Below, piece by piece: positions 44,150 to 47,004 of a DNA stretch of 64,000 bases. Made by a program: the position numbers and the translations under genes. Source of the DNA: Anaeromyxobacter paludicola (lineage in GTDB: Bacteria; Myxococcota; Myxococcia; Myxococcales; Anaeromyxobacteraceae); the NCBI RefSeq assembly GCF_023169965.1, contig NZ_AP025592.1:682001-746000 (forward strand), written 5' to 3'. Each line of letters begins with the position of its first letter. Positions within the stretch are counted from its first letter, which is position 1. The notes under the pieces are model-generated. The model worked only from the letters and a program-made list of their open reading frames with translations. It made no database searches and was not told the DNA's origin.

Positions 44150-44557
44150 ATGCTTCGCAAGGCCATTGCCGACATCGAGCAGAAGTACGTGCGGAAGGAC
44201 GTCCCCGAGTTCAGCGCCGGCGACACCGTGCGCGTGCACACCAAGATCAAGGAAGGCGACAAGGAGCGCATCCAGGTCTTCGAGGGCGTCGTCATCGCGC
44301 ACCGCCGCGGCGAGGCCCGCGCCATGTTCACCGTCCGCAAGGTGAGCTACGGCATCGGCGTGGAGCGCATGTTCCCCGTCCACAGCCCGCGCATCGACAA
44401 GATCGAGGTGCTCGGCCACGGCCAGGTCCGCCGGTCGCGCCTCTACTACCTCCGGGAGCTGCAGGGCAAGGCGGCCCGCCTCGTCCAGGACGAGGGCGGC
44501 CACGCGGCCGCCGCTCCGGCCGCGGCCCCCGCCGCCGCCGAGCCGGCCCCGGCGTAG
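44150..44557 (+). CDS. rplS: 50S ribosomal protein L19
   Basis: L19 of 135 residues at the 30S-50S interface. The core has [40 protein letters not shown] and [16 protein letters not shown]. The last 25 or so residues are an Ala/Pro-rich tail. The ATG at 44150 follows AAAGGAGAGCAGAAC. It is the last gene of the operon. Confidence 0.97.
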
Positions 44558-44682
44558 CCGGGCCCCTGGCCCGTCCGTGCGGGAGGGGCGTTGCCTCTCC
44601 CGCGCGCGCGGCCGTCCCGCCTCGCGAGCGCGCGGCGCGGTCGGCGTGCGCGCGCCTGGCGGCAGCACGCTGCGTTCATCCT

Positions 44683-44715
44683 CGAGCGAGAGGGGGCCCG
44701 TCCCTCTCTCGCTCG
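44683..44715 (+). other. Long stem-loop after rplS
   Basis: CGAGCGAGAG (44683-44692) and CTCTCGCTCG (44706-44715) are perfect 10-base arms around 13 bases that can pair further (GGGG with CCC). There is no U-tract. It lies 126 bases after rplS in a 201-base gap with no gene, and may end or process the operon transcript. Confidence 0.5.
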
Positions 44716-44721
44716 TGGCGC

Positions 44722-44750
44722 TTCTCCGGCCGTCGCCGGGCGAGTACCAT
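44722..44750 (+). promoter_or_regulatory. Possible promoter of the membrane coiled-coil gene
   Basis: TACCAT (44745-44750) lies eight bases before the GTG start, with a weak TTCTCC (44722-44727) 17 bases upstream. TACCAT is also the -10 candidate at 54789 and 55159. If real, the message would be nearly or fully leaderless. Confidence 0.3.
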
Positions 44751-44758
44751 CCGCACAC

Positions 44759-46573
44759 GTGATCCTGCTCGAGCTCGCCGCCCAGGGGGTGAAGGGCGTG
44801 GCCCCCGCCGGCGGGCGCCTGGCGCTCCGCCCCGGCTACAACGTCGTGCCGTCGGCCGACGGCGCCGCGCTGGCGCGGCTCGTGGCGGCGCTGGTGGCCC
44901 CGGGGGAGCGCGACGGCGAGGCCCTCCCCGGCGTCGCCGCCGCTCCGGCCCGGGCGGGCGCGACGCTGGCCGGCAAGGACCGGCTGACGCTCCGCCTGGT
45001 GCGCGAGTTCGGCCGGAGCGCGCAGCTGCAGCGCTTCGATGCGGCGCGGCGCGCCTTCGCGCCGCTGGCCCAGGACCTCGCCGAGATCTCGCGCCAGCTC
45101 CTCGCCGCCGGCGCGCCCTCGCGCGCCCGCTTCGAGCGGGTGCGGATGCTCGATCCGGCCGACCTCCCGTCCCGCGCCCCGGGGGCCGGGCTGCCGCGGA
45201 GCGCGACGGCCGCCGCGCCGCGCCCCCGGCTCGCGCCGGAGGCGGCGGCGGCGAAGCTGGCGGCGCTCGCCGACGAGCTCGAGCGCGCCCGGGCCGCCGA
45301 CCGGCTCCAGTTCCAGCTCGACGGGCTGCAGAGCCGGCTCTTCCAGCAGGAGAAGCTCCTCGAGGACGGCGCGCGGCTGCGGGAGGCGGTCGCCGCGGCC
45401 GAGGCCGCGCGCGCCCAGCTCGACCGGGTGGCGGCGGTGCTCGCCGGGCTGGGGGAGCTCGAGGCGCGCCTGGCCGGCCACGCCCGGGCCGTGGCGCGCC
45501 GGGACGAGGCCCTGGCGCGCGCGGCCGAGGAGCGGGGCGCGCTGGAGCGCGAGGCGGAGGCGCGCGCGCCCCGGCCGCTGCGACGCTCGCCGGTCTTCGT
45601 CGCGGGGCTGGCGCTCGGCGCGCTCGCCCTCGCGGGCGGCGTGGCCGGCGCGCTGCAGGGCAGCAACTGGCGCTACCTCGCGCTGCTCGACGTGCCCGCC
45701 TTCGGCGTGGCGGCCTGGGCGGCGCTGCGCGCCATCGGCGACCTCGAGGGCCGGGAGCGCGGCGAGCGCCGGCGCGCGCTGGTCGAGGAGTACGAGCGCA
45801 AGGCCGCCGAGGCCTACGCGAAGGAGGCCGGCGAGGTGGACGCGGCCGTGACGGCCCTGGAGCTGAAGGGGCCCGCGGCGCTGGCGGAGTCGGCGCAGCG
45901 GGTGGCCGAGGCCGACCGGGCGGTCGAGGCGGCGCGCGCGGCCCTCGCGGCCTGGGAGGCGCGCGCGGAGACCCGCGGCGCGGTGGAGGAGAAGGCGCGC
46001 GCCGCGGCGGAGCTGGCGCGGGTGGAGGCCGCCATAGCCGGGCAGGCGGGCGGCTACCTCCGCGACGCCCGCAGCATCGAGGCCGAGGTGGCGCGGGTGC
46101 AGGCGGAGCTGGCGCGCCCCCCGGCGCCGGAGCCGGCGGCCGCGCCGCGGCCCGCCGATCCGATCGGCGCCTTCCTCGCGGCCACGGCGGCGGACGGCGA
46201 GCCCGCGGGCGAGCTCCTGCGGGCGATCGGCCCGCGGGCGCGGCAGCTCGCCGGGAACCTCTCGGGCGGGCGGCTCGGGGCGGTGCTCCTCGACGCCCGC
46301 GGCGCGCTCTCGGTCGAGGCCGGCGGGCGCGCGGTGCCGGCCGCGGGCCTCCCGCCGCCGGACCAGGATCTCGTGTACCTCGCGCTCAAGCTCGCCGCCG
46401 CGGAGCGCGAGGTCGCGGGGCAGGTGCTGGTGGTCGGCGAGGTCTTCGACCGGCTCCCGCTCGCCGCCCGCCGCGCGGCGGCGGCCTTCCTGAAGCAGCT
46501 CGCCCGGGCCGGGCAGGTGCTGCACGCCACCGCCGATCCGGTCTTCCGCGAGGCGGCGGATCACTCGGCATGA
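44759..46573 (+). CDS. Membrane coiled-coil protein resembling an SMC/YhaN-type ATPase without a P-loop
   Basis: This 604-residue protein is laid out like RecF/YhaN-type ABC ATPases. The N-terminal strand ends LRPGYNVVPSADGAALARLV, where a Walker A loop (GxxGxGKS) would be expected and is absent. Long Ala/Glu/Arg-rich coiled coils occupy about 155-275 and 340-470. Two hydrophobic segments, about 285-330, interrupt the coil (VFVAGLALGALALAGGVAGA and the next). The C-terminus has LPPPDQDLVYLALKLAAAE and LVVGEVFDRLPLAARRAAAA, which resemble the signature and Walker B helices but with the catalytic acidic pair altered. Nucleotide binding is therefore doubtful. It overlaps yraN by ATGA. Function unknown. 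Confidence 0.65.
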   Translation: MILLELAAQGVKGVAPAGGRLALRPGYNVVPSADGAALARLVAALVAPGERDGEALPGVAAAPARAGATLAGKDRLTLRLVREFGRSAQLQRFDAARRAFAPLAQDLAEISRQLLAAGAPSRARFERVRMLDPADLPSRAPGAGLPRSATAAAPRPRLAPEAAAAKLAALADELERARAADRLQFQLDGLQSRLFQQEKLLEDGARLREAVAAAEAARAQLDRVAAVLAGLGELEARLAGHARAVARRDEALARAAEERGALEREAEARAPRPLRRSPVFVAGLALGALALAGGVAGALQGSNWRYLALLDVPAFGVAAWAALRAIGDLEGRERGERRRALVEEYERKAAEAYAKEAGEVDAAVTALELKGPAALAESAQRVAEADRAVEAARAALAAWEARAETRGAVEEKARAAAELARVEAAIAGQAGGYLRDARSIEAEVARVQAELARPPAPEPAAAPRPADPIGAFLAATAADGEPAGELLRAIGPRARQLAGNLSGGRLGAVLLDARGALSVEAGGRAVPAAGLPPPDQDLVYLALKLAAAEREVAGQVLVVGEVFDRLPLAARRAAAAFLKQLARAGQVLHATADPVFREAADHSA

Positions 46574-47004
46574 CCGCGCCGGCCCGAGAGCGCCGCCGGA
46601 CCGGCCCGGAGGAGGCGCGGGAGCGCGCCCGCGAGGCCCGGGCCCGCGGCGCCGCGGCCGAGGCGCTGGCGGCGCGGCACCTCGAGGCCGCGGGGTACCT
46701 CGTCGTCGCCCGCAACCACCGGGCCCGGCGCGGCGAGGTGGACCTCGTCTGCCGCCACGACGGGATGCTGGTCTTCGTGGAGGTGCGCAGCCGCTCGCGC
46801 GAGGACTACGGCAGCCCCGCCGAGTCGGTCACGGTGCGGAAGGCGCGCCGGGTGGTCGCCGCCGCCGCCGACTACGCCGTGCGCCACGGCGGGCTCGACC
46901 AGCCGATGCGCTTCGACGTGGTGGCGGTGCACTGGGAGGAGCCCGGCCCGCGGCTCGAGCTCTGGCGCAACGCCTTCGACGCCGACGGCCGGCCCACGCT
47001 CTAG
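46570..47004 (+). CDS. yraN: YraN (UPF0102) family protein, predicted nuclease-like
   Basis: This 144-residue protein has the PD-(D/E)xK-like core of the YraN family: AAEALAARHLEAAGYLVVAR, RRGEVDLVCRHDG and VFVEVRSRSREDYG. The usual lysine of EVK is Arg here, a known variant. The first 28 residues are an Arg/Glu-rich extension. The ATG at 46570 overlaps the preceding stop by ATGA. It lies next to rsmI, its usual partner in many genomes. The family is tied to Holliday-junction or RNA work by fold only. Confidence 0.85.
   Translation: MTAPARERRRTGPEEARERAREARARGAAAEALAARHLEAAGYLVVARNHRARRGEVDLVCRHDGMLVFVEVRSRSREDYGSPAESVTVRKARRVVAAAADYAVRHGGLDQPMRFDVVAVHWEEPGPRLELWRNAFDADGRPTL

Follow-up and report, generated by a model that had tools for sequence, protein, structure and literature searches.

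The window analysed here, 64,000 nucleotides of contig NZ_AP025592.1 from Anaeromyxobacter paludicola, holds between rplS and yraN a gene encoding a protein of 604 amino acids, referred to here as gene X (Table 1). The original prediction had placed this reading frame correctly, with a GTG start codon at 44759 and a stop codon ending at 46573, and the start is taken to be right because alignment position 1 is Met or Val in 72 of 74 non-redundant rows of the family. The G+C content at the three codon positions (89/58/98%) is typical of coding sequence. Both proposed neighbours were found where expected: rplS ends at 44557, 201 bases upstream of gene X, and the stop codon of gene X shares the four bases ATGA with the start of yraN, in agreement with the suggested coupling. 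The gap from 44558 to 44758 is G+C-rich and has an inverted repeat recognisable by eye; a simple scan of these 201 bases returned no terminator- or promoter-like site.

Table 1. Gene X, its parts and its neighbours, in positions of the window
Feature	Position	Strand	Evidence
Gene X, YhaN/Rad50-type pseudo-ATPase with predicted membrane hairpin, 604 aa	44759..46573	+	ORF, relatives, profiles
N-terminal head lobe, residues 1-140	44759..45178	+	hhalign against canonical YhaN N-lobe, E 2.8e-8
GYNVVPSADGAAL where the P-loop has been lost, residues 26-38	44834..44872	+	Alignment with f13 GGPGSGKST-type loops and canonical YhaN GPNEAGKS
Q-loop-equivalent segment with family-specific LPS at its end, residues 127-138	45137..45172	+	P in 88/92 and S in 82/92 rows
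Coiled coil 1, residues 160-265	45236..45553	+	Holds conserved LQFxLDGLQxRLF (183-195); model and alignment
Predicted membrane hairpin, contains RYLALLDVPAFG	45593..45736	+	Hydrophobic segments 279-297 and 308-326
Coiled coil 2, residues 336-455	45764..46123	+	Full-length model
C-terminal head lobe, residues 470-604	46166..46570	+	Profiles and C-lobe model
LPPPDQDL where the ABC signature (LSxGTxxQ) would stand, residues 531-538	46349..46372	+	Alignment
VLVVGEVFDRL where Walker B would stand, residues 556-566	46424..46456	+	Alignment
rplS, encoding ribosomal protein L19; neighbour upstream, conserved	44150..44557	+	Pfam PF01245
yraN (UPF0102), start overlaps the gene X stop by 4 bases	46570..47004	+	Pfam PF02021

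The layout of the protein had been likened to that of YhaN/RecF-like ATPases, and profile comparisons with Rad50 and YhaN lobes together with a model of the C-lobe indeed give an ABC head of the Rad50/SMC kind. A profile of 45 gene X members reached the C-lobes of Rad50 ABC-ATPases in the PDB with E 7.5e-10 and SMC heads with 1e-4, and among long ORFs of the phylum that match Pfam AAA_27 (YhaN) it also reached the C-terminal portion. Profile-profile comparison of the 83 gene X members lacking a P-loop with 14 canonical YhaN proteins gave E 4.1e-21 for the C-lobe and 2.8e-8 for the N-lobe, while the crossed-lobe controls returned 0.37 (N against C) and 0.34 (C against N). The matches of the gene X profile fall in the head lobes, outside the coils. 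The family is covered by neither a Pfam nor an NCBIfam model, some members giving weak Rad50/SMC matches; AAA_27 (PF13514) does not match the window protein over the cut-off and is absent from the 25 Pfam families listed for the 45 members. A match to DUF6703 around the hairpin (residues 253-337, Pfam E 0.0083) was below the cut-off and was set aside.

Structure prediction, proposed as a check, answered for one lobe. The C-lobe of the window protein, folded together with one relative, gave a model of moderate quality (pLDDT 71.3, pTM 0.69) and of ABC type, with Rad50 1f2u_D as its best match (Z 12.2, rmsd 2.8, 121 aligned) followed by SMC heads, and with a single entry of the Foldseek list at E <= 0.001. 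The full-length model, built from two rows (the window protein and its relative L031), was poor (pLDDT 57.5) and did not resolve the N-lobe fold; its Foldseek list mixed Rad50 heads with unrelated long coiled coils, none at E <= 0.001. The membrane hairpin that had been proposed in the middle of the coiled coil is matched by the two hydrophobic segments, by hydropathy a predicted hairpin at mid-coil, the position of the globular hinge in SMC proteins. Taken together, these results support an ABC head of Rad50/YhaN type whose two lobes are separated by a coiled coil carrying a predicted membrane hairpin; homology of the N-lobe is shown by profile alignment, and that of the C-lobe by profiles and model.

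In the canonical YhaN proteins, GPNEAGKS stands near the start and LSRGTREQ towards the end, each in this or a closely similar form, paired hydrophobic segments lie mid-coil in nine of 14, and the order in most of them is P-loop, coil, membrane hairpin (in the same nine), coil and LSxGTxxQ. The gene X protein shares with YhaN the split head with homologous N- and C-lobes and the coil with a central membrane hairpin, whereas it is shorter in the window (604 aa against about 810-1270 aa), lacks the P-loop, LSxGTxxQ and acidic pair that YhaN carries, and is encoded behind rplS instead of a metallophosphoesterase gene. It resembles Rad50/SbcC in the fold and sequence of the C-lobe and differs from it in having no ATP motifs, a membrane hairpin in place of the zinc hook and no adjacent Mre11-type gene; the window protein contains no cysteine and therefore no zinc hook (CxxC).

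Gene X is a real, conserved gene, found by protein search in the genomes of 55 of 60 relatives and in 25 of 26 genera. Profile A1, made from the 45 members, matched in 95 of 117 genomes of the phylum, of which at least two are not clearly of the gene X family: the match in G066 is a long protein with GPNEAGKS, and that in G063 has E 6.9e-5. Motif counts refer to 92 distinct members, which come from part of the profile-matched genomes and from which fragments (L002, L015, L016, L025) and duplicates had been removed. Mean information in the family alignment is 1.70 in the N-lobe and 1.54 in the C-lobe against 1.22-1.28 in the coils. Members with and without a P-loop share LQFxLDGLQ in the first coil, RYLALLDIPAFG where the hairpin ends, and LPS following the Q-loop position, with P in 88 rows and S in 82 of the 92; QVxH near the C-terminal end is common among P-loop-less members and reads QVxL or QVxM in family f13. 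By hydropathy, at least one strong hydrophobic segment lies mid-protein in 89 of the 92 members and a pair in 78. Head, coil and anchor are conserved in the family, so selection appears to keep them while the ATP chemistry decays. Searches of viral contigs gave no relative of gene X, and PHROGs and PADLOC gave no match, so there is no sign from these searches that it belongs to a phage or a defence system.

The P-loop is intact in nine of the 92 members and absent in 83, as scored by the pattern [AG]xxxxGK[ST], which admits the loop AESGAGKS of L112; the ABC signature LSxG is absent in all 92, and the acidic pair of Walker B is present in 73. The window protein has neither P-loop nor signature, and its Walker B reads GE (VVGEVF). 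The replacement of the N-terminal P-loop by GYNVVPSADGAAL had been called as it stands in the protein. The altered Walker B, VVGEVFDRL, was likewise quoted correctly, but its loss is special to the window protein: within f1, the family to which this protein belongs, DD, DE or ED is kept by 16 of 17 members. Intact Walker motifs in relatives had been named as the point to check: the nine P-loops belong to all nine f13 genomes in the sample, and their loops (GGPGSGKST and similar) align exactly with GYNVVPSADGAAL, with none aligned elsewhere. Of the two outcomes that had been named as refuting, neither appeared: the P-loops of relatives lie at the expected position, and profiles and C-lobe model give an ABC-type head. 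Loss of the P-loop characterises an old family found across the phylum, beyond the window gene alone, and the place is conserved within lineages without a P-loop, for instance as GYNVVxADG in f1. The f13 members (L106, L107, L109, L111-L115, L117) combine an intact Walker A with a mostly DDPF or DDxF Walker B and no signature. Judged by these motifs, their heads represent an unusual, half-intact ABC head.

The genomic place is nearly constant. Among 96 loci holding gene X, 88 have rplS in the same orientation; of the remaining eight, several are cut short or lie at contig ends, and in L128 a different gene precedes gene X. The P-loop-bearing f13 members also lie at the rplS locus and are therefore positional orthologues. 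Downstream of gene X follows yraN or rnhB, with a 4-base start-stop overlap in 25 of 83 loci and no readable downstream start in 10 of the 83. In some f13 loci (L106, L112 and L117), yraN follows rnhB but is encoded on the other strand, so its partnership with gene X in an operon is not fixed. Of 12 genomes without gene X or with a weak match only, 11 have rplS, and the next recognised gene is rnhB or yraN in 10 of these 11 loci, which marks gene X as a clean insert in an old operon that can be lost. It is not indispensable in the phylum, since some nearly complete genomes do not have it. Two small genomes (G042 and G134, 2.1-2.7 Mb, loci L161 and L163), from a family of mostly 5-13 Mb genomes, are without gene X and have yraN directly after rplS.

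Rad50-type ATPase genes often follow metallophosphoesterase genes, and all five sampled places of canonical YhaN genes in the phylum follow such a gene (Mre11-type). Loci L168-L172, together with L143, L145, L148, L149 and L151, show YhaN behind a calcineurin-like phosphoesterase, as YhaO/SbcD-like pairs, and several of the YhaN proteins so paired carry a mid-coil membrane hairpin. Gene X in the window adjoins no Mre11/SbcD-type gene, its neighbours being rplS and yraN.

The heads of ABC and SMC proteins are generally viewed as engines for ATP binding and splitting, and pseudo-ATPases are a known kind of protein. As a whole, the observations are best explained by an ABC/SMC-type ATPase that turned into a nucleotide-independent membrane tether or scaffold, a reading considered fairly probable. 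The ancestor would have been a membrane-anchored YhaN/Rad50-type ABC ATPase, whose gene presumably came to lie between rplS and rnhB/yraN, away from any Mre11-type nuclease gene. An ABC-like head may still be formed by pairing of the N- and C-lobes where the antiparallel coiled coil ends, and the central hairpin is predicted from hydropathy to fix this coil in the inner membrane. The ABC signature was probably lost first, as no member has one, and the P-loop would have followed in nearly all lineages. An ABC head without a signature cannot form the usual ATP sandwich, so the P-loop would no longer have been needed and could have been lost in most lineages. Having lost P-loop, signature and acidic pair, the head of the window protein should neither bind nor split ATP, and the earlier suggestion that the protein has become a structural one at the membrane would accord with this. 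Most likely the conserved surfaces of head (LPS, QVxH) and coil (LQFxLDGLQ) would serve it to bind a partner, with DNA, the ribosome or another protein as candidate tethered target.

A dead gene X head might instead pair with, and regulate, an intact Rad50/SMC-type ATPase encoded elsewhere, which is unlikely. No Rad50/SMC-type ATPase gene adjoins gene X in the window, the genome holds no strong canonical YhaN match (best AAA_27 match 26 bits), and a mixed dimer would have two incomplete sites, since gene X contributes neither P-loop nor signature. In favour of this pairing, the head-lobe columns are still more conserved than the coils, and the five weak matches in the own genome are other AAA_27-like ATPase genes. 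Precedent exists in C. elegans, where the pseudo-SMC protein SMCL-1 is proposed to pair with condensin and regulate it (PMC5373644). As described there, SMCL-1 shares with gene X an SMC-type head without ATP-hydrolysis residues, whereas it is eukaryotic and has no coil or hinge, in contrast to gene X, which keeps the coil and a membrane anchor.

Gene X as a switch that binds nucleotide or metal, using the remaining Walker B acidic pair and the remodelled loop, is given a low probability. DD, DE or ED in 73 of the 92 members and the lineage-wise conservation of the replacement loop would suit it, but the window protein itself has GE at Walker B, and GK[ST] is missing at the loop place in 83 of the 92. 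Nucleotide binding without a classical P-loop occurs in proteins, and judging from the acidic pair, ligand or metal binding could persist in those 73 members.

It is very improbable that the ancestor already lacked the P-loop and that f13 regained it. In a tree with canonical YhaN as outgroup, the P-loop-bearing rows form one clade (100/99) in a nested position, its sister being L108 (96/89), a member of family f10 that lacks the loop; the second f10 genome has no P-loop either. If regain is barred, this tree would require five or more losses, against two changes with regain; with the root on the f13 branch a single loss would suffice. The root is unsafe, as the outgroup branch is long and L042 and L045, members of the window's own order, fall outside all others. 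Moreover, a full GxxxxGK[ST] is unlikely to re-evolve at the ancestral position, and the f13 loops (GGPGSGK, GGSGSGK) are unlike the phylum's YhaN loop (GPNEAGK) and not apparent copies of it. Finally, head homology as coiled-coil noise in an ordinary coiled-coil membrane protein, which sub-threshold Pfam matches throughout might suggest, is hardly credible, contradicted by profile matches in the lobes, failing crossed-lobe controls and intact P-loops exactly at the predicted place.

Returning to the change from ATPase to tether, the decay stages are visible side by side: none of the members seen retains the signature, only one family still has the P-loop, and some members are losing the Walker B pair. 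A wider claim is more tentative and held at somewhat less than even chance, namely that a stepwise, phylum-wide passage from ABC ATPase to nucleotide-free tether took place at the rplS locus, with living intermediates, and that the product would form a mechanical link between the membrane and a partner in the cytoplasm, coordinated with the production of ribosomes. Literature searches, mostly on YhaN or on pseudo-SMC heads in general and mostly outside the subscription literature, returned nothing on gene X. As far as these searches go, a phylum-wide membrane-anchored Rad50/YhaN-type pseudo-ATPase with P-loop-bearing orthologues at the same locus is new. In most of the phylum the gene X head fold has outlived its ATP chemistry. 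Orthologues at several stages of decay occupy one syntenic locus, so the function of a Rad50-like head unable to cycle can be asked, by swap and rescue between them.

RNase HII of the window's genome is encoded outside the rplS operon (G000:C1:2913343-2913873), while many relatives keep rnhB in the operon. Replacement of rnhB by gene X was considered and rejected, as many loci hold rplS, gene X and rnhB in a row.
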